A stretch of 39,750 nucleotides of DNA from Lautropia sp. (lineage in GTDB: Bacteria > Pseudomonadota > Gammaproteobacteria > Burkholderiales > Burkholderiaceae_E): contig JAUNLD010000023.1 of NCBI GenBank assembly GCA_030532425.1, positions 1-39,750 of the forward strand. Direction: 5' to 3'. This document shows, piece after piece, positions 7,097 to 34,839 of the stretch. The position numbers were made by a program, and so were the translations under genes. Positions within the stretch are counted from its first letter, which is position 1, and each line of letters begins with the position of its first letter. Under the pieces are notes generated by a model. That model ran no database searches and was not told the origin of the DNA. It saw only the letters and a program-made list of their open reading frames with translations.

Positions 7097-9286
7097 TCAA
7101 AAGCGATAGCGCAGCGTCAGCTGCACCGAGCGCGGTGCGCCGGGCATGTTGTAGTTGGACGCAAAACCATGCGCCGACACATAGTAGGCGCGGTCGAACA
7201 GGTTGCCCAGCCTCAGCTGCACATCCATCGCCGCCCGACGGTAATAGGCCATCGCATCCACCGTGGCATAGCCAGGCAAGACCACCGTGTTGGACGGATT
7301 GGCATAGCGACGGCCCACCGCGTACACACCGCCCCCCACGCCAAAGCCGTGGCCGATGTCACGCGTCAGCCAGGCACTGGCCGCATGGCGCGGGGTAAGC
7401 GTGGCCCGCTTGCCTTGCACCGCCACTCCTTCGCTGACAGCCGGAGACCGGGTAATGCGCGCATCCAGGTAGGCATAGCTGACCCAGCTCTCCCAGCCAC
7501 CGGGCAGGCGCCCACTCAAGCTCAGCTCGGCACCACGCGTGCGCTGCGTGCCCAACGGCTGCACCCGGTTGGTCACGGGGTCTGTCGCCTTGATATGCGT
7601 ACGCCGTGCCTGGAACACCGAGGCCGTCGCCGACAGCCGATGGCTCAGATCCCACTTCATGCCGGCCTCGTAGGCAGTGGTTTCTTCGGGCGCGATGTCG
7701 GCATTGCTGGCAGACAGTGCAAAGCCCTCCCCTGAAGGCTGGAAGGATTTGCTCATCGACATGTAGTAAGACACATCTGCCTGCGGCTGATAGACCACGC
7801 CCACACGAGGACTCCAGGCCTTGTCGGTTCGCGACAGGTCGGGTTTGCCCGCCTGATGCTCATGCGTTTCCTGACGGAAACGGTCATAGCGCACGCCTGC
7901 CAGCGCCTTCCACTGCGGCGCAAGAGAGAGCATGTCCTGTACATAAAGGCTGGCCACCTTGAAGATGCCATGGTTGTCAGTGCCTGGCGTCCCGGCAATG
8001 GCCAGCGGCAACAACGGCCCCACCGGGTTGAACAGATCCACCGTGCCCACGCTTCCTCCCGAATGCACCTGCTGATCCTTGCGCTGACGCCCCAGCTCCA
8101 TGCCCACCAGCCACTGATGTTCGATACCTGCCCAACCGGCACGGCCCTTCAACTCAGTCTGGTTGAAGACACCCTGCTCGTCCCGCGCGATGGCACCTCG
8201 GCCCAGCGTGGCCGTGCGCGCCGCTGCATTGACCCGCCCCGGCGTGGTGTTATGGCGATCGAGGCTGTAATCGTAGTAACGCAGTGCATTGCGCAGCATC
8301 AGCCCACTGCCAAAGGTATGCTCCACCGTCAATGTGCTCGAAGCCACCCGCGCCTGCGAGAAATCCACATCCCGGCCGTTGGCTGCCCCGTAATAGGTGC
8401 CCGCCGGCACCGCCACCGGCCGTCCATTCAGCGCTGGCACCCCAAAATCCGTCAGGCGCCGATCCGACAGGTAATCGGCCTGCCAAAGCACACGCGTGGC
8501 CGCCGAGGGTTGCCATTGCACCGTCGGCGCCACGGCCTTGCGATCAAGAAACTGCTGGTTGCGATAGCTTTCAGCCTTTTCCAGGGCGCCCGTCAGCCGA
8601 TACGAGAAATCGCTGTCACCGGGAGCACGCGCCAGGTCGAACTCACCACGCCGCTGCTTCCTGCTGCCCAACGTCAGTACCAGCTCGGAGAGATCGATAC
8701 CCGGCTTCTTGGTGATGCGGTTGAGCAGCCCACCCGACGAGCCTCGGCCATACAGCACCGCTGCCGGCCCCTTCACCAGCTCCAGCTGTTCGATGTTGGA
8801 CAGGTCGCGGAAATACAGCGCATCGTCCCGCAACCCGTCCACGAACTGATCGGACATGGCTGAAAAGCCGCGAATCGTCACCTGGTCGCGCTGGCCATCC
8901 CCGTGCGACAACCCCACCCCAGCCACGTTGCGCACCGCATCCTGCACCGACAACACCCCCTGATCGCGCAGCAACTGCTGTGGCAGCACGTTGACGGTCT
9001 GCGGCACATCACGCAAGGGCACCGCCACCCGCGTGGCAGTGCCTGCCTCAGGCAGCCGATAGCCCGGTTCCTCGGCCGATGCCCGTACCCGTACCGTGTC
9101 CAGTTCGGATACCCCAGCCTCCCTTCGTGCCGCCGATGGCACCCGCCCTGACTCCATCACGCTTCCCGATGCGTCATCCACCTGCGCAACAACCTGCGCT
9201 ACCGCCACTTGCTGCGCGCCAGCTCCTGCTACCAGTCCCCATCCCAGCACCGCCACCACCGACGTCTGTACTGTCTTCTTCCTCAT
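7097..9286 (-). CDS. TonB-dependent siderophore receptor
   Basis: This is a 729-residue outer-membrane receptor. The signal peptide is MRKKTVQTSVVAVLGWGLVA with likely cleavage after GAGA. A TonB-box-like DTVRVRA follows near residue 65. The plug domain (about 90-210) carries SVQDAVRNVAGV, VTIRGFSAMSDQFVDGLRD and ELVKGPAAVLYGRGSSGG, the hallmark of the siderophore-receptor subfamily. A 22-strand barrel ends in the aromatic SVQLTLRYRF with terminal Phe. The open frame starts earlier (9355), but that start lies within a Fur-box-like element; the ATG at 9286 gives a proper signal peptide. It has a TIGR01783-type architecture (FhuE/FcuA/FoxA relatives); the ligand, probably a hydroxamate or catecholate, cannot be told from sequence. 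No siderophore synthesis genes are nearby. Confidence 0.9.
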   Translation of the reverse strand: MRKKTVQTSVVAVLGWGLVAGAGAQQVAVAQVVAQVDDASGSVMESGRVPSAARREAGVSELDTVRVRASAEEPGYRLPEAGTATRVAVPLRDVPQTVNVLPQQLLRDQGVLSVQDAVRNVAGVGLSHGDGQRDQVTIRGFSAMSDQFVDGLRDDALYFRDLSNIEQLELVKGPAAVLYGRGSSGGLLNRITKKPGIDLSELVLTLGSRKQRRGEFDLARAPGDSDFSYRLTGALEKAESYRNQQFLDRKAVAPTVQWQPSAATRVLWQADYLSDRRLTDFGVPALNGRPVAVPAGTYYGAANGRDVDFSQARVASSTLTVEHTFGSGLMLRNALRYYDYSLDRHNTTPGRVNAAARTATLGRGAIARDEQGVFNQTELKGRAGWAGIEHQWLVGMELGRQRKDQQVHSGGSVGTVDLFNPVGPLLPLAIAGTPGTDNHGIFKVASLYVQDMLSLAPQWKALAGVRYDRFRQETHEHQAGKPDLSRTDKAWSPRVGVVYQPQADVSYYMSMSKSFQPSGEGFALSASNADIAPEETTAYEAGMKWDLSHRLSATASVFQARRTHIKATDPVTNRVQPLGTQRTRGAELSLSGRLPGGWESWVSYAYLDARITRSPAVSEGVAVQGKRATLTPRHAASAWLTRDIGHGFGVGGGVYAVGRRYANPSNTVVLPGYATVDAMAYYRRAAMDVQLRLGNLFDRAYYVSAHGFASNYNMPGAPRSVQLTLRYRF

Positions 9287-27167: not shown

Positions 27168-28526
27168 ATGGCAGACACGCCCGCCCCCCCTCCCGGTCCA
27201 TCGGCCCCCGCCGAAGCGATCCCACCCCGTACGCACTTGCCCGCCAGCCCCGCACCGGCCCCCGCCCCTGGTCCGCTGCCCGAACAGCCGCTGCTGCGCC
27301 CCTGCGAGTGGGCCCTGCTGGGCAGTGCCTACCTGAGCCAGACGGTGGCCTTCAGCTTCTTCTTCGTGTCGCTCTCCACCATCCTGCGCACACAGGGGGC
27401 GGCGCTGGACGATATCGGCTGGCTGTACCTGCTGGGCCTGCTGCCGGGGCTGAAATTCCTGTGGGCCCCGCTGATGGACCGCGTCGGCTTCGGGCAACTT
27501 GGTCACTACACGGCCTGGCTGGTGCTGATGCAGGCCTGCCTGATCGGCACGCTGGTTTTCATGGCGCTGCTGCCCGTGGGGGCGGGCCAGCCCCTGCCAA
27601 TGGGCGCTCTGGTGGCCGGCAGCGTGGCCCTGGCCTTCTTCACCGCCTGCCAGGACATGGCGGCCGACGGCCTGTCGGTGCGGCTGCTCTCGCCACGCCA
27701 GCGGGGCCTGGGCAATGCCGTGCAGATGGCCTGCGGCGCCGTGGGTTTCATCGCAGCCGGCGGCGGCGTGCTGACGCTGTACGAGCACCACGGCTGGACG
27801 GTGGCCCTGCTGAGCCTGGTGTCACTGAACCTGGTCACGCTGCTGCTGGCCCTCTTCTACCGCGAGCCACCCCATGCCCGGCCCGCACCCCATGGCCCCG
27901 CGCACCTGGCTGGCTACTGGCGCGGCCTGGCGCGCTTCTGGCAGCGCCCCGACACCGGCTGGGCCTGGCTGGTGCTGATCCTGTTCCTGCAGTCGGGCGT
28001 GTATCTGGCCTACAGCGTGCTGACGCCGATGCTGGTGGACAGCGGCTGGACACCCAGCCGTATCGGTCAGGTGGTGAACCTGTACGGCACACTGGTGGGT
28101 ATGGCCTCGATGCTGGGGCTGGGCGTGGTGATGAAGCGCTGGTCGCCGACGGTGGCCCTGCGGGTGATGCTGCCGGCGCAGGGGGTGGCGGTAGTGGCGC
28201 TGGCCGCCCCGCTGTTGCTGCGGGCCGATGCGATCTGGGTGACACTGGGCGTGGGCCTGTACATGGCCATCTACATGCCGATGGGCGTACTTGTAAGCAC
28301 ACTGATGATGAGTCGCGCCAGCGCCCATGCGCCAGCCACCGATTTCTCGATGCAGTACGGCGTGTACCTGTGCGCCGGTTATGGCTTTGGCGCCCTGGGC
28401 CTGCCGCTGGCGCAGCGCCTGGGCTACGACACCGTGCTGGGCCTGGCGCTGGGCATCAACCTGCTGCTGTGGGTGGGGGTGCCGCGCTTGTGGCGGCGGG
28501 TGAACGTGCAGGGGCGGAACAACTGA
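27168..28526 (+). CDS. MFS transporter, AmpG/RhtX-like
   Basis: A 452-residue polytopic protein with about 12 helices, preceded by a Pro/Ala-rich N-terminal extension of about 45 residues. The first helix region LLGSAYLSQTVAFSFFFVSLSTILR and GLLPGLKFLWAPLMDRVGFG resemble the AmpG/acetyl-CoA-transporter-like branch of the MFS, which includes muropeptide permease AmpG and the siderophore importers RhtX/FptX. TACQDMAADGLSVRLL (D near helix 4) is the AmpG-type 'QD.A.DG' motif. The cargo is unknown; a muropeptide or siderophore is possible. The start codon lacks a clear ribosome site, so a shorter N-terminus cannot be excluded. Confidence 0.82.
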   Translation: MADTPAPPPGPSAPAEAIPPRTHLPASPAPAPAPGPLPEQPLLRPCEWALLGSAYLSQTVAFSFFFVSLSTILRTQGAALDDIGWLYLLGLLPGLKFLWAPLMDRVGFGQLGHYTAWLVLMQACLIGTLVFMALLPVGAGQPLPMGALVAGSVALAFFTACQDMAADGLSVRLLSPRQRGLGNAVQMACGAVGFIAAGGGVLTLYEHHGWTVALLSLVSLNLVTLLLALFYREPPHARPAPHGPAHLAGYWRGLARFWQRPDTGWAWLVLILFLQSGVYLAYSVLTPMLVDSGWTPSRIGQVVNLYGTLVGMASMLGLGVVMKRWSPTVALRVMLPAQGVAVVALAAPLLLRADAIWVTLGVGLYMAIYMPMGVLVSTLMMSRASAHAPATDFSMQYGVYLCAGYGFGALGLPLAQRLGYDTVLGLALGINLLLWVGVPRLWRRVNVQGRNN

Positions 28527-28647
28527 AATACTGCCAGCAGGAGGCTGGTCTTTCAGCGCTACTCCGTTGTATGGGATTGGTCCAACGCACGCCCCCATGC
28601 CAACGAACAGCGCCATGGTTGCACATGATGCACGACATCAGCATGCC

Positions 28648-29589
28648 CTACGGCCGCCGAAAACCGAGTTGCTCAACCGCCGCCGCGCTTTGGCGGCGTG
28701 GCAATTTTGAAAAGTAGTTTTCCTCCCGGCTGATGTCAGCCCTTGCCGGCAACACGGCCAAAAACTTTCCTGCCAGCTCTGGCCTTCTGCCATCCTTGCG
28801 GGTTTGCCACATCTGCAAGAATTGCGCCTTGCTGAACGTACGATTGCCAAGACTGGGATCGGCCAGCCAGACCGTATCACCACTGATTCCGCGCAGAACA
28901 CTGAAATGATCGTCCTTGCGATATTTGACGTAGACGATGACGGGAATCTTCAGCTTGACGAGCTGATCCCAGCTTGCCGCGAAGCCTCTGGCCTTGAAAC
29001 CGAACCCTGGCATCGCCCGGGCCATGTCGTCAAAGCTGGCCATGCCATCTTCCTCTCCCATCGCTTTCAGAAAGCGTTTTTCTGAGACCTTCTGGCCATA
29101 GAAGCTGTTGAGCAGGGTTGCCGCAGAGGCAGCTCCGCAGGAGTAATCCAGATCCTGCTTGACGATGCCGTCATCACGCAAGGTCTTCCAGCTTCTCACC
29201 TTCACCTGCCCCGAGGCGCTCTGCGTTTGCAGCAAGGCGCCCTGATCGACCGGTCTTTTCTCCGGCTCATCGTCCGCATGATCGTCCTGACCGTCGGCGG
29301 AAGCCTGCTTGCGCCCGTTCCGCCGATCCTCCGCATTCAGATCGCTGGTGCGTTCACCCCGAGATTCTGCCCTGCGGGACGAAGCGGCCTGCTGCCCGGG
29401 GGATTCTGCTTCCGTCGCTGTCTGAACACCGTCTTTCGAGATGGCGCCGTCATGGGTCGTGCGGGTTGCATCCGGTGACAGCATGCCCTCTTGCGCAAAA
29501 GCAACCGGCATCAAGAGAGCCAGCGCTGCGCCTGCCATAACCCAAGCCCCCGTGCGGCCGTTACCGCGCGCTGAACAAGGCCTAATCAT
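28648..29589 (-). CDS. Periplasmic C39-like cysteine peptidase
   Basis: A 313-residue exported protein. The signal peptide (1-32, ending PVAFA) is followed by a charged, low-complexity linker (about 36-128) and then a peptidase C39-like domain (about 130-285). The papain-like residues are visible: Gln145 and Cys151 in KQDLDYSCGAAS, His228 in KDDHFSVLRGI and Asp244 in WLADPSLGNRTF. C39 domains cleave double-glycine leader peptides. Usually they are fused to an ABC exporter; here the domain is free and carries a Sec signal, as in FapD of functional amyloid systems. Its start directly abuts the stop of the membrane-protein gene upstream (TGA-ATG). Its likely substrates are the two precursors at 30286 and 31654. 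Confidence 0.87.
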   Translation of the reverse strand: MIRPCSARGNGRTGAWVMAGAALALLMPVAFAQEGMLSPDATRTTHDGAISKDGVQTATEAESPGQQAASSRRAESRGERTSDLNAEDRRNGRKQASADGQDDHADDEPEKRPVDQGALLQTQSASGQVKVRSWKTLRDDGIVKQDLDYSCGAASAATLLNSFYGQKVSEKRFLKAMGEEDGMASFDDMARAMPGFGFKARGFAASWDQLVKLKIPVIVYVKYRKDDHFSVLRGISGDTVWLADPSLGNRTFSKAQFLQMWQTRKDGRRPELAGKFLAVLPARADISREENYFSKLPRRQSAAAVEQLGFRRP

Positions 29590-30177
29590 TCAACCCGCTC
29601 CCAGGCTTGCCGCCGGAGATGCAGGCGGCAACCCGCCCATCAGGAACAGGCCCATGCCGACCGATGCCAGCAGCATGAGGACGGCCATCAATACCACGCT
29701 GATTAGCACACCTGTAATGGCATACCCCAGTGATATCCTGGAAACAGCACTGCTCAGCGCATGCCCAGCAACCCAGACCGAATACAGCCACAGCGCCATG
29801 CCCAGCACCGGCGGCAGCCCCACGATCGTCAACCCGGCTGCCAGCGCATCCGGCAGCAGCCACGCAGCAGCCAGCAGGTTGAACAGATCACCTTCTCCAT
29901 CCCATCGGCCACCGCGCCTTGCCCACCAGCGCACCACACCCACACATACCAGAAAACACAGCCAGACCAGCACCACCGAAAAACCGACGGCCAGCGCGGG
30001 GGACATCACGGCGCCCTCGGGCATGCCAGGCTGGGGTGCCGTCACACGTGGATCCAGCCCGGTGAGCACCCCCAACAAAGTGATGGCCAGCACAGCTTGC
30101 CAACGTGAGAAGGAAAACCGTGAAAACGACTGCTCACGCTGGATGAACGCAAACACCGATGAAGAAATGATATTCAT
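29590..30177 (-). CDS. Polytopic inner-membrane protein, Yip1-like
   Basis: About 195 residues with five hydrophobic helices (VLAITLLGVLTGL; ALAVGFSVVLVWLCFLVCVG; LLAAAWLLPDALAAGLTIVG; GMALWLYSVWVAGHAL; ITGVLISVVLMAVLMLLASV). Helix spacing and the short N-terminal cytoplasmic part (MNIISSSVFAFIQREQS) resemble the bacterial Yip1-domain proteins, but I have not confirmed this. The ATG at 30177 has an excellent AAGGAGG ribosome site, which decides it against a 29-codon longer frame. It lies between the first precursor gene (gap 108 bases) and the C39 peptidase gene (no gap), so it probably belongs to the maturation or export machinery, or protects the membrane. Confidence 0.72.
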   Translation of the reverse strand: MNIISSSVFAFIQREQSFSRFSFSRWQAVLAITLLGVLTGLDPRVTAPQPGMPEGAVMSPALAVGFSVVLVWLCFLVCVGVVRWWARRGGRWDGEGDLFNLLAAAWLLPDALAAGLTIVGLPPVLGMALWLYSVWVAGHALSSAVSRISLGYAITGVLISVVLMAVLMLLASVGMGLFLMGGLPPASPAASLGAG

Positions 30178-30285
30178 GAAGACCTCCTTCTCATGACAAC
30201 CGACATGCCCCTCCACGAAAACGGGGAACCTGACCCCATGCGACCATGAACCGGGGAATGCCATGTGCTAGCCACCAGGGCCTGT

Positions 30286-30651
30286 TCAACGGATCACAGC
30301 AGGAAAAAGACCGGAAGGACCGACAAGACGCCGATCTCCATTAATGACAGGAAGATAAATCTCCATCTGCCGTGACAACAGCGGAAGGCGGACCACATCC
30401 GGAGTCAGGGCAGAGGCGGGGAGTTCAAAGGGAAAGGCGGCCCCCTCGGTTTCCTTCATCTCCACCGACGACAGCGCAGCCACCTGCATCGGCTTGCCCG
30501 ATGCCTCGAAGAGGGTTGACGCATCCGCTTCCGTGAAGGCTGCTTGGGTCTGGGGCGACGCAGGCGCCTTGACATCAACCTCAGCCGCCAGTGACTGAGA
30601 CGAGATCAGGCCAGTGGTGGCCAGGACAAGAACAACATTCTTAGCTTTCAT
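30286..30651 (-). CDS. Secreted precursor peptide A with double-glycine-type leader
   Basis: A 121-residue protein. Residues 1-23 are a Sec signal peptide (MKAKNVVLVLATTGLISSQS, then LAA). Residues 24-59 form a variable acidic spacer. Residues 60-71 (LSSVEMKETEGA) match the LSxxEM..xxGA/GG leader pattern that C39 peptidases cut, so cleavage is expected after Gly70-Ala71. The remaining 50-residue core (AFPFELPASALTPDVVRLPL and on) is Pro/Leu-rich and not Gly-rich. The first 66 residues are identical to those of the protein at 31654-32091. The ribosome site is AGGAG 10 bases before the ATG. No homologue is recognised; a bacteriocin, amyloid or signalling peptide is possible. Confidence 0.75.
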   Translation of the reverse strand: MKAKNVVLVLATTGLISSQSLAAEVDVKAPASPQTQAAFTEADASTLFEASGKPMQVAALSSVEMKETEGAAFPFELPASALTPDVVRLPLLSRQMEIYLPVINGDRRLVGPSGLFPAVIR

Positions 30652-30806
30652 GGATTAAACTCCTGGGGAACTCCCCTATAAACAACAACACGCCTCGACA
30701 AACTCCCGAGGCACCCGCTGGTCGTGCTGCAACACTGCCAACGCTTGTCGGGCAGGCATGACCTGCCCAGGCCCCTCCCTTTCGGGAGGGATTTTTTTAC
30801 TTGAAC
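30452..30806. repeat. 355-bp perfect direct repeat, copy 1
   Basis: Every base from 30452 to 30806 equals 31892 to 32246, offset 1440. It covers codons 1-66 of precursor A, its whole upstream region and the last 10 bases of an outer-membrane gene remnant. Identity stops abruptly at the core side, and fades to homology on the other side. Confidence 0.97.
30773..30798 (+). terminator. Hairpin with T-run on the + strand, copy 1
   Basis: CCCTCCC and GGGAGGG form a 7-bp stem with a TTTC loop, followed by A and seven T on the + strand. It is a textbook intrinsic terminator for + strand transcription, although every annotated gene here is on the minus strand. A second hairpin (GGGCAGG/CCTGCCC) lies next to it at 30750-30768. 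Confidence 0.6.
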
Positions 30807-30916
30807 ATGTACAACCAGTTCACCCGCAGCTCGGCACCATTCCGCTCCGACTCCCCGCTAAGAAAGGTCGCATTGAGGGTATTGTCGCGCGCAAGGCCAT
30901 AGCCCATGCCCAGAAA
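30797..30916 (-). pseudogene. 3' remnant of an outer-membrane protein gene
   Basis: Translated on the minus strand from about 30916 to the TAA at 30797, it gives LGMGYGLARDNTLNATFLSG and then a tail ending GAELRVNWLYMFK. This is about three-quarters identical to the last 38 residues of the intact gene at 32237-33148, but not identical, so the source was a diverged relative. Upstream of about 30912 homology ends at once in AT-rich DNA. There is no start, so it is not expressed as a protein. Its position just before precursor A mirrors the intact gene before precursor B. Confidence 0.85.
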
Positions 30917-31356
30917 ATTGAACACATGAAAACATCTCCCGGCACTCACTCGCCATAAAACCACCAAACGACTTACCCCCCCAAAAAAGACAAAATTAAA
31001 TAAATGCTATGAAATTAAAAACGGAACCATCACTCCAACCATTCACCCCAAACACGATTCATCGATCACCAACAAAACACCCAAACCAAGCCCCCTCCAA
31101 TAACCACGGAAATGGCTATGACAATCAAATAATTTGCAACACCTGAAACACGACACAATTTTAATTTTTCGAGTCACTTTACCATTAAAATCAACTCTAA
31201 TTGACAAAACACAAATTTATAAGAATTGCTCAGCCTAGCGGCAACCATCTTACCCCCCCGGTCGAACGACATTACTCACCTAAGAACAGGCGTCAGTGGC
31301 CATAACCATGCAACAAACTCCATTATAAATTAATTGCACCAAAATGCACATCATAA
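30917..31356. other. AT-rich spacer without recognised gene
   Basis: Base composition changes sharply: for example 31141-31200 has 18 G/C in 60, against about two-thirds in most of the window. No open frame with normal codon use is seen. A 30-codon minus-strand frame (31158 to 31066, TTG start) would encode a single hydrophobic helix (ANYLIVIAISVVIGGGLVWV). It has no ribosome site, so it is only noted. The stretch is probably transferred DNA or the decayed part of an imported cassette. Confidence 0.6.
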
Positions 31357-31626
31357 TCATCCTCCACCACCAACAAACAACTTTACAACAAACCTCATCC
31401 ATGCCACGACCGAGACAGAAACAGCGAACGTAGTCAAGAACACCCCGACATACCTTCCCACAATAGCTTGAGACTCCAACCATCCAGACAACCAGATCGC
31501 CGCAAAAACAAATCCGCACGCAGATAGCGTATATAATACAACCATCAAAATCCTAAACAACACGCTCACAGACACTCCAAATAATTGCGACCATACCCCG
31601 ATCAACCATAAGGAAGAACGGGGCAT
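31357..31626 (-). CDS. Small hydrophobic membrane protein, possible immunity protein
   Basis: About 89 residues from the ATG at 31626. The frame can also begin at a TTG at 31650, 4 bases after the stop of precursor B. Most of the protein is hydrophobic: WLIGVWSQLFGVSVSVLFRI, LYTLSACGFVFAAIWLSGWL and VGVFLTTFAVSVSVVAWM suggest three helices. The end is Gly-rich. Codons are AT-rich, unlike the rest of the window. A small membrane protein directly after a bacteriocin-like precursor is the usual place for an immunity gene; that role is inferred from position and topology only. Neither start has a good ribosome site. Confidence 0.5.
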   Translation of the reverse strand: MPRSSLWLIGVWSQLFGVSVSVLFRILMVVLYTLSACGFVFAAIWLSGWLESQAIVGRYVGVFLTTFAVSVSVVAWMRFVVKLFVGGGG

Positions 31627-31653
31627 TTCGTCAAAATAGACTACAAACAAAGG

Positions 31654-32091
31654 TCATTCTCGTGCTGCCGAAATCGCACCGCCAGCTACACCGCCCGCCA
31701 TAGCCAATGCCGCACTGCCGAACCCCCTTACCGGGGAGAAAAGCCCACTTGCCAACCCCCCAGCAACAGCCGTAGTGAAAGCATAGGGGTCACGCCCACC
31801 GGCCGCGAGATAACCGTAACCAGCCCCGTACAATCCAGCGATTCCTCCAGCCGCGTGATACAGTGCAACAGGAATTGCGGCCCCTTGCGTATCCTTCATC
31901 TCCACCGACGACAGCGCAGCCACCTGCATCGGCTTGCCCGATGCCTCGAAGAGGGTTGACGCATCCGCTTCCGTGAAGGCTGCTTGGGTCTGGGGCGACG
32001 CAGGCGCCTTGACATCAACCTCAGCCGCCAGTGACTGAGACGAGATCAGGCCAGTGGTGGCCAGGACAAGAACAACATTCTTAGCTTTCAT
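31654..32091 (-). CDS. Secreted precursor peptide B with double-glycine-type leader and Gly/Ala-rich core
   Basis: A 145-residue protein whose first 66 residues equal precursor A: Sec signal peptide (1-23), acidic spacer, then LSSVEMKDTQGA (60-71). Predicted C39 cleavage after Gly70-Ala71 would free a 74-residue core. That core is very rich in Gly (17) and Ala, with GxxxG-like spacing (AAGGIAGLYGAGYGYLAAGG; AALAMAGGVAGGAISAA) and few charges. It resembles class II bacteriocin/microcin cores, which insert into membranes. It is followed at once by a small membrane-protein gene. The ribosome site (AGGAG) and the leader are in the perfect repeat shared with precursor A. Confidence 0.8.
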   Translation of the reverse strand: MKAKNVVLVLATTGLISSQSLAAEVDVKAPASPQTQAAFTEADASTLFEASGKPMQVAALSSVEMKDTQGAAIPVALYHAAGGIAGLYGAGYGYLAAGGRDPYAFTTAVAGGLASGLFSPVRGFGSAALAMAGGVAGGAISAARE

Positions 32092-32246
32092 GGATTAAAC
32101 TCCTGGGGAACTCCCCTATAAACAACAACACGCCTCGACAAACTCCCGAGGCACCCGCTGGTCGTGCTGCAACACTGCCAACGCTTGTCGGGCAGGCATG
32201 ACCTGCCCAGGCCCCTCCCTTTCGGGAGGGATTTTTTTACTTGAAC
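31892..32246. repeat. 355-bp perfect direct repeat, copy 2
   Basis: Identical to 30452-30806. It holds codons 1-66 of precursor B, the complete upstream region with three possible stem-loops and the last 10 bases of the intact outer-membrane gene. A possible minus-strand promoter (TTGTCG at 32141-32136, TATAGG at 32120-32115, spacing 15) is shared by both copies. Confidence 0.97.
32213..32238 (+). terminator. Hairpin with T-run on the + strand, copy 2
   Basis: Same element as at 30773-30798: 7-bp stem CCCTCCC/GGGAGGG and a T7 run at 32232-32238, overlapping the outer-membrane gene stop codon. On the minus strand the loop is GAAA, a stable tetraloop, but no U-tract follows there. The companion hairpin GGGCAGG/CCTGCCC is at 32190-32208. 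Confidence 0.6.
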
Positions 32247-33148
32247 GTGTACAACCAGTTCACCCGCAATTCGGCGCCACTCTGGCCAGAAGCCTTGGCG
32301 CGAAAAGTCGCATTGAGCGTATTGCCGCGCGAAAGCCCGTAGCCCACGCCCAGCACCAGATCACTTTCCGTTCTGTTGTAGCCCCTACGCTGACCACCCA
32401 AGGTATCGGCCGAGTGACGCAGCCACTGCATGCCGCCACTGAGCGTGACCCGATCATTGACCGCAAACGCCACGGAAGGATGGATCTGCAGCAGGCCGCC
32501 CGGCTTGAACGACGCTCTGCCGTCCCCGGATGAACGCGCCAGGCGATAGCTGCTGGTGACGGAAAAGACGATCGGGTCGACAGCCTTGTAGGCCGTCACG
32601 CCCAACAGCGCTGACTTGAAGCGGGCCTTGTCTTCCAGGCGCCGCTCCACCACGGCCAGCTCGGCAAAGCCCAGCACGGCCGGTGTGTCGTCGTCTTCCT
32701 TGAACTGGTAATTGATGCCCGCCCACAGATCGGAGAAACGGGATGTACTGCTGCTGCTGACACCATTCACATCCTGCGCACGCTCGCTGCTGGCCAGCAT
32801 GCTGGCGCGTGCATAGACTTCAGCCTTGGCGGTTGCGCCGTAACGCAAGCCAACGGTGGGCACAAAGTTGTCGCTGTTGGCATTGCGCTCGCCTACCGTG
32901 GCGGGCACCGCAACAAAGGAGGTGGAACCGGTCTGCACCAGCACCGGGTCGGCAGTGGACACATCCTGCTGGTCGCGGTTGGCGTAGGCAAAGGACAAGT
33001 CCAGCTTGAACCTGCCCTTGTCGGTGATGAGATCTTCCACCGTCAGGGGCAGATCATCCGCCCAAGCCGAGCCACTGGCTGCGCATGCAATCAGCGTGCC
33101 CAGCGCCCAGCACTTGTTCCGTTCCTTATAATTTGTCGACGCATTCAT
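32237..33148 (-). CDS. Outer-membrane beta-barrel protein of the precursor/C39 locus
   Basis: A 303-residue protein with a signal peptide ending SAWA (about residue 30), then alternating hydrophobic/polar stretches typical of antiparallel barrel strands (RFKLDLSFAYANRDQ; VGLRYGATAKAEVYARASM; LWAGINYQFKEDD; DLVLGVGYGLSRGNTLNATF; GAELRVNWLYTFK). The aromatic-rich end fits Bam-dependent insertion, although the final residue is Lys. It resembles the small 'transporter' barrels found beside C39-peptidase genes, such as the FapF idea in amyloid systems; I infer a role in passage of the mature peptide over the outer membrane. The gene precedes precursor B by 145 bases on the same strand. Confidence 0.75.
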   Translation of the reverse strand: MNASTNYKERNKCWALGTLIACAASGSAWADDLPLTVEDLITDKGRFKLDLSFAYANRDQQDVSTADPVLVQTGSTSFVAVPATVGERNANSDNFVPTVGLRYGATAKAEVYARASMLASSERAQDVNGVSSSSTSRFSDLWAGINYQFKEDDDTPAVLGFAELAVVERRLEDKARFKSALLGVTAYKAVDPIVFSVTSSYRLARSSGDGRASFKPGGLLQIHPSVAFAVNDRVTLSGGMQWLRHSADTLGGQRRGYNRTESDLVLGVGYGLSRGNTLNATFRAKASGQSGAELRVNWLYTFK

Positions 33149-33633
33149 CGTGGCAGAGCTGTCTCCGAAATCGTTGGAGCGATCCTAACAACCGCCATTC
33201 ACATCGTTCAATTACGCCCCATTGCTCGTCCGTAAATTATTCCGACAACAACGTCTGCACACGCGTGCCGTGTCTCGCATGCAGATACACACGCTGGCCA
33301 AACGCAATGTCCGTTCAAGCCTGCCATGACAGGGTATTGGTTCCGTCCTGAATCCTCTTTCCCGGCACAGCACATGTCAGCCTGTTGCTGTCATGCATCA
33401 AACGAAAACCTGTGCATCCTGTTCTGCTTGGTAAAATTCTGCGCCCTCTTGCGAAACGAAACGTGGGGTGTGGGGCTGCCACCCGTGTGGGGAACAGGGC
33501 ACACCCCTGCTCAACACACACCCCGCTACCGTCCATTCACCCCGAGCGTTCTTGACAGACATCAGCGTCCGTGCGGGGCGGGGTTGGATAGAATCCCCAA
33601 GGTCTCTGATCGCCTTTGCAAGGACTGGACATC
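33149..33633. promoter_or_regulatory. Divergent intergenic region with extended -10 candidate
   Basis: These 485 bases separate the barrel gene (minus) from the hydroxylase gene (plus). The left third is fairly AT-rich. At 33429-33437 TGGTAAAAT is an extended -10 element pointing toward the hydroxylase, about 200 bases ahead of it. No gene of its own is seen. Confidence 0.4.
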
Positions 33634-34839
33634 ATGGAATTCGACCTCCTCATCAGTGGCGCCGGCCCGGCGGGCCTGTGCCTGGCGCGTGCCCTGGCCG
33701 ATACGGGCCTGACGATTGGCCTGGTGGAACAGCAGCCGCTGGCTGCGCTGCAGGAGGCGCCTTTCGATGGCCGCGAGATCGCGCTGACGCAGCCTTCGGC
33801 CAGCCTGCTGCGCGAGCTGGGGCTGTGGGACCGGATCCGGGAGATCGACCCGGCGGCGCTGTCGCCGCTGCGCGATGCCCGGGTCTTCAATGGCGCCAAC
33901 CCGTTTTCGATGCTGATCGGCCATGCGCTCACCTCGCGCTCGGAGCTGGGCTGGCTGGTATCCAACCACCTGATCCGCCGCACGGCCTTTGCCGAGGTGC
34001 AGGCCGCGGCCGAACGCGATGGCCGGATCACGCTGCTGGCGGGCGTGCCGGCCATGCGGGTGCAGTGCGATGGGGAAGGCGGGGTGCTGACGCTGGCCGA
34101 TGGCAGCACGCACCGGGCACGCCTGCTGGTGGCAGCCGACAGCCGTTTTTCATCCACGCGCCGGGCCGTGGGCATCGGTGCCAGCCAGCATGATTTTGGC
34201 CGGACGATGCTGGTCTGCCAGATGACGCACGACGTGCCGCACGAACATGTGGCCTGGGAGTGGTTCGATTATGGCCAGACGCTGGCGCTGCTGCCGATGA
34301 ACGATGATCCGGCCACCGGCGAGCACCGGGCCTCGACAGTGCTGACGCTGCCACACCAGGAGATCGAGCCGCTGCTGACGATGGACGCCGCCGCCTTTGG
34401 CGAGGAGATGGCACGGCGCTTTCACGGGCGGCTGGGCGGCATGCGGCTGGCCAGCACCCGCCACAGCTATCCGCTGGTGGGGGTGATGCCGCACCGGCTG
34501 GTGGCCCGGCGCTTTGCCTGCATCGGCGACGCGGCCGTCGGCATGCACCCGGTGACGGCGCACGGATTCAATTTCGGCCTGCTCAGCGTCGACACGCTGG
34601 CCCGGGAGCTGCGCCAGGCGCTGGCCAGCGGCCGCGACATCGGCAGCCCAGAGCTGCTGGCCCGCTACGAGCGCAAGCACATGCTGGCCACGCGCCCGCT
34701 CTACGAAGTGACCAAGATGATCGCCACGCTCTACACCACCGAGGCCGCACCGGCCCGGCTGCTGCGCGATGCCGCCCTGCGGGTGGGCCAGCGGCTGACG
34801 CCCTTCCGCAAGCTGGTGGCGGCGTCGCTGACCGGCTGA
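33634..34839 (+). CDS. FAD-dependent ubiquinone-type hydroxylase, UbiH/UbiM family
   Basis: A 401-residue flavoprotein monooxygenase. The FAD-binding Rossmann motif ISGAGPAGLCLARAL is at residues 7-21 (GxGxxG at 9-14). The second FAD motif CIGDAAVGMHPVTAHGFNFG (Gly298-Asp299, His305) is the UbiH/COQ6 signature. The HPVTAHGFN wording differs from UbiH and UbiF (usually HPVAGQG) and reminds me of UbiM, the broad hydroxylase of Neisseria and some other proteobacteria. It would hydroxylate the ubiquinone ring precursor at the inner membrane. The start 33634 places the FAD motif at the normal distance; six codons upstream are also open. Family sure, UbiM assignment tentative. Confidence 0.85.
   Translation: MEFDLLISGAGPAGLCLARALADTGLTIGLVEQQPLAALQEAPFDGREIALTQPSASLLRELGLWDRIREIDPAALSPLRDARVFNGANPFSMLIGHALTSRSELGWLVSNHLIRRTAFAEVQAAAERDGRITLLAGVPAMRVQCDGEGGVLTLADGSTHRARLLVAADSRFSSTRRAVGIGASQHDFGRTMLVCQMTHDVPHEHVAWEWFDYGQTLALLPMNDDPATGEHRASTVLTLPHQEIEPLLTMDAAAFGEEMARRFHGRLGGMRLASTRHSYPLVGVMPHRLVARRFACIGDAAVGMHPVTAHGFNFGLLSVDTLARELRQALASGRDIGSPELLARYERKHMLATRPLYEVTKMIATLYTTEAAPARLLRDAALRVGQRLTPFRKLVAASLTG

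Follow-up and report, generated by a model that had tools for sequence, protein, structure and literature searches.

Class II microcins and bacteriocins are exported by C39-ABC exporters, and haemocin is bactericidal in Haemophilus. The gonococcal nap island (NapP, NapF, NapABC, NapI) combines a C39 peptidase, a FapF-like barrel and double-glycine (GG) peptides; in the passages of the published account used here, periplasmic cleavage and export were proposed for the Nap peptides, which promoted autolysis and had no antimicrobial activity (PMC11798529). For the peptidase FapD of the Fap system, the cited passage states that "the target remains unclear" (PMC5557850), and at least eight secretory systems of polymorphic toxins are counted in the cited section of another account (PMC3482391). 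Here a locus of the genus Lautropia is described that shares features with all of these systems. It lies on the minus strand, from position 33148 to 28648, of a stretch of 39,750 nucleotides (the window) and encodes a barrel, two precursor peptides and a free C39 peptidase. With a probability of about 70% it is a small polymorphic toxin/immunity system, the products of which would be delivered via Sec, the peptidase and the barrel.

The features of the locus are, in the order of transcription and including open reading frames (ORFs) with transmembrane (TM) segments:

32237 to 33148, minus strand: FapF-like outer-membrane beta-barrel of 303 amino acids (aa) with a signal peptide, assigned by profile and fold (OMP_b-brl model 1.6e-4, below its cut-off)
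31861 to 32352, no strand: copy 1 of a direct repeat, found by DNA repeat comparison
31654 to 32091, minus strand: precursor A, with a Sec-like signal, a C39-type leader and a glycine-rich cationic core of 74 aa (leader profile 5.3e-19)
31357 to 31650, minus strand: ORF with three TM segments (P0004) and an uncertain start, which by its position and TM segments may confer immunity to core A
30797 to 30967, minus strand: stub that duplicates the 3′ terminus of the barrel gene (barrel profile positions 255-292, 1.6e-11), within the 492-bp repeat
30421 to 30912, no strand: copy 2 of the direct repeat, with barrel end, intergenic stretch and leader (93.3% identity to copy 1, identical run of 355 bp)
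30286 to 30651, minus strand: precursor B, with the signal and leader of precursor A and an unrelated core of 50 aa (leader profile 9.4e-20)
29590 to 30177, minus strand: membrane protein of 195 aa with four to five TM segments (P0002), a probable machinery part beside the C39 gene (homologues adjoin C39; ribosome site at 30177, the probable start)
28648 to 29589, minus strand: free exported C39 peptidase (P0001), its signal followed by a charged linker (Peptidase_C39 1.5e-20; Q145, C151, H228, D244)

An earlier note, made from the letters of the window, had described a barrel, two precursors with one common leader, a small TM ORF, a membrane protein and an exported C39 peptidase on one strand, and all of these were verified. 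Its catalytic Cys, His and Asp were found to be C151, H228 and D244, and Q145 is present as well. The note had also seen no exporter of the usual C39-fusion ABC type, which agrees with a profile search of the host assembly (125 contigs, 88.8% complete), in which the free peptidase was the single C39 protein over the cut-off. An ABC-exported microcin was rejected on this basis. Class II microcins and bacteriocins are alike in having a double-glycine-type leader, a glycine-rich cationic core and a small membrane protein encoded behind it, but the window locus encodes a free, exported peptidase and a precursor that carries a Sec-like signal.

In the precursors a signal-like segment is followed by a stretch ending L-S-x-x-E-M-x-x-T-E-G-A. 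The leaders of the two window precursors, LSSVEMKDTQGA and LSSVEMKETEGA, have the residue spacing of the consensus for C39 double-glycine leaders. A leader profile matched 65 of 7849 ORFs and none of the 7849 reversed or 7849 shuffled ones; its training set was chosen by motif, so that L-12, E/D-8, M-7, T-4 and G-2 were fixed by choice, while M-17, L-15 and A-14 were free. In some relatives the residue after the leader G is other than A, S or G. A C39-type leader behind a Sec-like signal is consistent with the secretion and maturation route that the earlier note had suggested, in which the leader would be cut in the periplasm and the product would leave through the barrel.

The best match of the 12-strand window barrel, by profile and by fold, is FapF; in the structure comparison FapF and other listed known barrels were weighed, which leaves room for families outside that list. 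The window barrel was aligned from residue 31, directly after the signal peptide, and FapF was matched from residue 88, showing that the N-terminal coiled coil of FapF is lacking. The parallel to FapD and FapF drawn in the earlier note thus holds for the type of peptidase and for the barrel. However, among NCBIfam models the peptidase scored highest with FilB (84.2 bits, cut-off 475) and FapD (79 bits, cut-off 330), in both cases far below the cut-off, and membership in the Fap or Fil systems was rejected. A canonical C39 leader also sets the window precursors apart from Fap proteins, which according to the cited passage lack canonical C39 sequences (PMC5557850).

A toxin/immunity family is indicated by the cores and the ORFs behind them. 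The cores of at least 15 aa (n = 62) fell into 22 single-linkage clusters behind one constant leader profile, the largest with 31 mostly glycine-rich members and many of them singletons, and the isoelectric point (pI) was above 8 in 57 of the 62. Core A (pI 8.4, 23% Gly) is related to the cores of loci L055 and L061 (1.7e-12); core B is a singleton. A scan of the two window precursors and of six precursors from relatives against Pfam and NCBIfam yielded nothing over the cut-off, as did a scan of the haemocin peptide HmcA against NCBIfam alone, and a gonococcal precursor with the leader had only chance-level matches in the PDB. A pairing test was performed with 54 precursors that had a next ORF; P0002 matches were removed, and L019 and L020 (copies of L024 and L047) as well as the near-identical cores of L038, L040, L061 and L083 were left out. 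Related next ORFs, which were picked by rule and are in part in a wrong frame, were found for 17 of 62 pairs of related cores versus 1 of 1369 other pairs, and none of 1000 shuffles reached 17 (maximum 7). At a stricter core cut of E<1e-15 the numbers were 15 of 22 versus 3 of 1409; most, not all, close core pairs have matching next ORFs. One core class is common to Lautropia (genome G007), Acinetobacter and Neisseria dentiae, and 3 of its 6 pairs had related next ORFs at E<1e-3, with one more at 0.005.

The next ORF had a TM segment for 29 of 31 glycine-rich cores (14% Gly or more) versus 13 of 23 others (Fisher p 0.002). According to the cited part of one account, ionophore toxins of contact-dependent inhibition (CDI) systems share a glycine-zipper motif and go together with membrane-bound immunity (PMC11630599). 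The gonococcal precursor ends like an Rhs protein of Methylomonas sp. DH-1: over the final 65 residues of both the identity is 64.6%, and the genes behind the two are related (29% over 55 aa, E 9e-9 in a single comparison). The toxin part of the Rhs protein and the immunity part of the gene after it (Methylomonas locus L148, 2501-3051) recur at the gonococcal precursor.

Within the window the leaders of both precursors are contained in the 492-bp direct repeat. Its identical run of 355 bp extends from the final barrel codons over the intergenic stretch to the leader, and the cores and the downstream sequences differ. Precursors A and B are separate cassettes of a variable family, and B, which stands behind the duplicated barrel end, is in the best reading a displaced toxin cassette. 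An Acinetobacter plasmid has a like plan, with a barrel-end piece, a precursor and ORF, and then a full barrel with two more precursor/ORF units. The displaced modules of polymorphic toxin systems resemble such stub-bearing cassettes. Rhs and CDI systems have in common with the family of the locus a constant export part, a variable toxic end, a paired gene behind it, extra cassettes with stubs (in the window and on the Acinetobacter plasmid) and, in the gonococcal relative, one toxin domain; they differ in that the proteins of the window type are very short and in the Sec-periplasmic C39-barrel route, which the cited sections do not name (PMC3482391, PMC11630599; for the routes, PMC3482391).

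Besides the pair in the window, the host genome encodes a leader precursor on contig C74 and another at the edge of contig C86. As only one C39 protein was over the cut-off and several leader precursors are present, one machine may serve several toxins. On C74 (L136, 49000-56500) a 1262-bp repeat (97.3%) brackets the further precursor.

The sequences directly show the gene set, the leader, the active site, the barrel fold, the repeat, the vacant site in sister genomes and, at family level, the pairing of cores with next ORFs; from these the following mechanism is inferred. Sec would carry each precursor over the inner membrane, the free C39 peptidase would cut it in the periplasm after the G-A that the leaders conserve, and the FapF-like barrel would be the exit for the mature core, in most cases cationic, with the 4-5-TM protein presumably assisting at the inner membrane. 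The core would attack other, related bacteria, and the downstream protein, for core A possibly P0004, would protect the producer. Glycine-rich cores such as A would probably depolarise membranes and be countered by TM immunity proteins, other cores of the family would be toxin domains that fold and are matched by soluble immunity proteins, and new core/immunity pairs would enter by recombination where barrel end and leader are repeated.

Conservation of the gene set, a check that had been proposed together with the note, was analyzed by scanning named genomes with an alignment of the peptidase. This yielded 69 loci, a few of which share one genome or one contig; the carriers include Thauera, Delftia, Herbaspirillum, Tepidimonas, Acinetobacter, Neisseria, Halomonas, Marinobacter, Helicobacter and Bathymodiolus symbionts. 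A barrel was found at 48 loci (some in pieces), a leader precursor at 46, both at 40 and a P0002 homologue at 15. When only the 52 loci that contain C39 and extend at least 2.5 kb upstream of it are counted, these features occur at 43, 42, 38 and 11, respectively. The commonest order is barrel, precursor(s), in some cases P0002, and C39; the precursors come first in Helicobacter (L050, L064, L066) and after C39 in Lautropia G006 and G007. In G007 (L018, 4968-5219) the end of a small ORF after the precursor repeats the GGSDDLEAYFK end of the flanking redoxin-glutaredoxin product (8270-9010); a long DNA repeat between this ORF and the redoxin-glutaredoxin gene was looked for and not found.

Because its homologues immediately precede C39 in 15 of the 69 loci, the 4-5-TM protein P0002 is, judged by this neighbourhood, counted as machinery that is not tied to one toxin. 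A role as the immunity protein of precursor B was rejected, as the homologues precede C39 downstream of differing cores. At L028 (5801-6691) a single ORF looks as if a class-2 immunity-like part had been fused to a P0002-like membrane part.

The distribution is patchy. The barrel profile matched in 26 of 398 sampled Pseudomonadota genomes, its own genome counted and at most six candidates scored per genome, and in 5 of 9 Lautropia genomes, in one by a fragment only. Among the 397 further Pseudomonadota genomes the sole other strong barrel was that of G313 (8.8e-36), the next best being partial (4.8e-12). A common system was rejected, given the single other strong barrel match in these 397 genomes, and carriage by phages was rejected as well, as no barrel or peptidase relative was confirmed in viral_contigs.

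The earlier note had held that the arrangement is not a standard described system. This must be corrected: the system is real and conserved, and two relatives have been described, the nap island (in the cited passages of PMC11798529) and the haemocin locus on plasmid p250 of Avibacterium paragallinarum. The latter has the order HmcD-C39-ATPase-HmcA-HmcI and resembles the window locus in its barrel (profile 1.7e-22), its free C39 peptidase (5.8e-31), a precursor with a signal-like N-terminus and LSQKEMSEVKGG, and an immunity gene behind it. It differs by an AAA-type ATPase (HmcB-type), which is absent from the ORFs at 28648-33148, where P0002 stands beside C39 instead, by a single small Cys-containing core, and by a leader profile match of only 0.0057. 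The cassette nature and the breadth of the family were not found in the literature searched, and no account of a polymorphic C39/barrel family was found in openly licensed PMC literature, preprints being outside that search. With slightly better than even odds, the family represents a delivery route of its own for polymorphic toxins, via Sec, a periplasmic C39 peptidase and a FapF-like barrel, that is widespread but patchy among Beta- and Gammaproteobacteria and in Helicobacter; one machine would serve several toxin/immunity cassettes scattered over a genome, haemocin would be an offshoot and the nap island a partly decayed member.

The nap island also underlies the alternative that survives best, namely that the cores are self-lysis or signalling peptides, exported in the same way and directed at the producer's own population, as proposed for Naps. 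In gonococcal record NZ_CP119142.1, the C39 gene between the genes for histidyl-tRNA synthetase (HisRS) and pseudouridine synthase, the flanks reported for the nap island (PMC11798529), encodes a protein with 59% identity to P0001 in 184 aa, and the island's barrel is 42% identical to the window barrel over 156 aa. Free C39, FapF-like barrel, small cationic GG peptides and, in the cited passages, the proposed route are thus shared, and the reported autolysis without antimicrobial activity speaks for a self-directed role. The island differs, however, by this reported role and by its barrel of 180 aa, which stops at profile position 170; a search of the 18 ORFs between its C39 and barrel genes with the leader profile gave no match at E<=10, and neither a barrel-end repeat nor P0002 was seen in the record examined. 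It may therefore be a partly decayed member or remnant, and competition accounts better for cores that are exchanged together with a paired ORF and for the Rhs toxin domain. Self-lysis or signalling is regarded as unlikely. In the same record the island (L149, 1782-5594) has the barrel cut short, and a full barrel adjoining a leader precursor is present elsewhere (L103, 5947-7742; 39.3% over 89% to the window barrel); two more free C39 genes were found, one of them a 55.6% match.

Still less probable is that the genes of the Lautropia locus are relics of a mobile toxin locus and do not work there. Decay seems to be frequent in the family, as C39 frames are broken at L047, L062, L074 and L084; in the host genome contig C88 carries a decayed barrel/core-A piece and C27 a barrel fragment, and no antidote was seen behind precursor B. 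Against this stand the intact barrel, C39 peptidase, 4-5-TM protein and precursor A of the window, the active-site residues and likely ribosome sites for most of these genes. At L047 the barrel frame runs out beside the leader part of a precursor. A Fap- or Fil-like surface fibre, in which the cores would be subunits for structure or adhesion and the next ORFs helpers, is very improbable, since a FapF-like barrel and FilB and FapD as top peptidase models are outweighed by the scores far below cut-off and by cores that co-vary with the next ORF.

Several observations weigh against a polymorphic toxin/immunity system. At the loose cut, 45 of the 62 related-core pairs had no related next ORF. A search of plasmids for Rhs-type matches of class 1 and class 2 cores found none, and the mature Naps lacked antimicrobial activity in the cited passages (PMC11798529). 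No P0004 homologue was found in the related loci, the ORFs behind the relatives of core A (L055, L061) are unlike P0004, and a P0004 match behind the decayed core-A copy on C88 (E 0.12) was not counted, so that P0004 is kept as a candidate. An antidote ORF for precursor B was sought downstream and not found, and the other reading frames of the core B region contained nothing recognisable.

If a toxin/immunity system is nevertheless encoded, toxin domains of large Rhs-type proteins would also leave cells as short peptides via a small barrel, an evolutionary source of the gonococcal autolysis peptides would be at hand, and the family would offer natural toxin/immunity pairs that share one export tag. 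For exported C39 peptidases, whose substrates have yet to be settled, the conserved Sec signal with a C39-type leader next to one of them provides a directly testable candidate.

The genomic setting was compared with that of relatives. The guanine-plus-cytosine (GC) content is 39-62% within the island, with 39% in an AT-rich stretch between the 3-TM ORF and the barrel stub, versus 65.6% for the whole window and 70% for the two flanking genes:

27168 to 28526: major facilitator superfamily (MFS) gene, neighbour of the island
33616 to 34839: gene for a flavin adenine dinucleotide (FAD)-binding protein, neighbour of the island

In two sister genomes the island is absent, the matches to these genes being 152 bp (G002) and 306 bp (G006) apart. 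Other sequence lies between them in G008 (1.4 kb), G001 (3.4 kb) and G003 (10.7 kb); G004, G005 and G007, which had no close MFS match, were left out. The gap between the two genes (window 28527-33615), empty or variably filled among the relatives, is a possible insertion hotspot.

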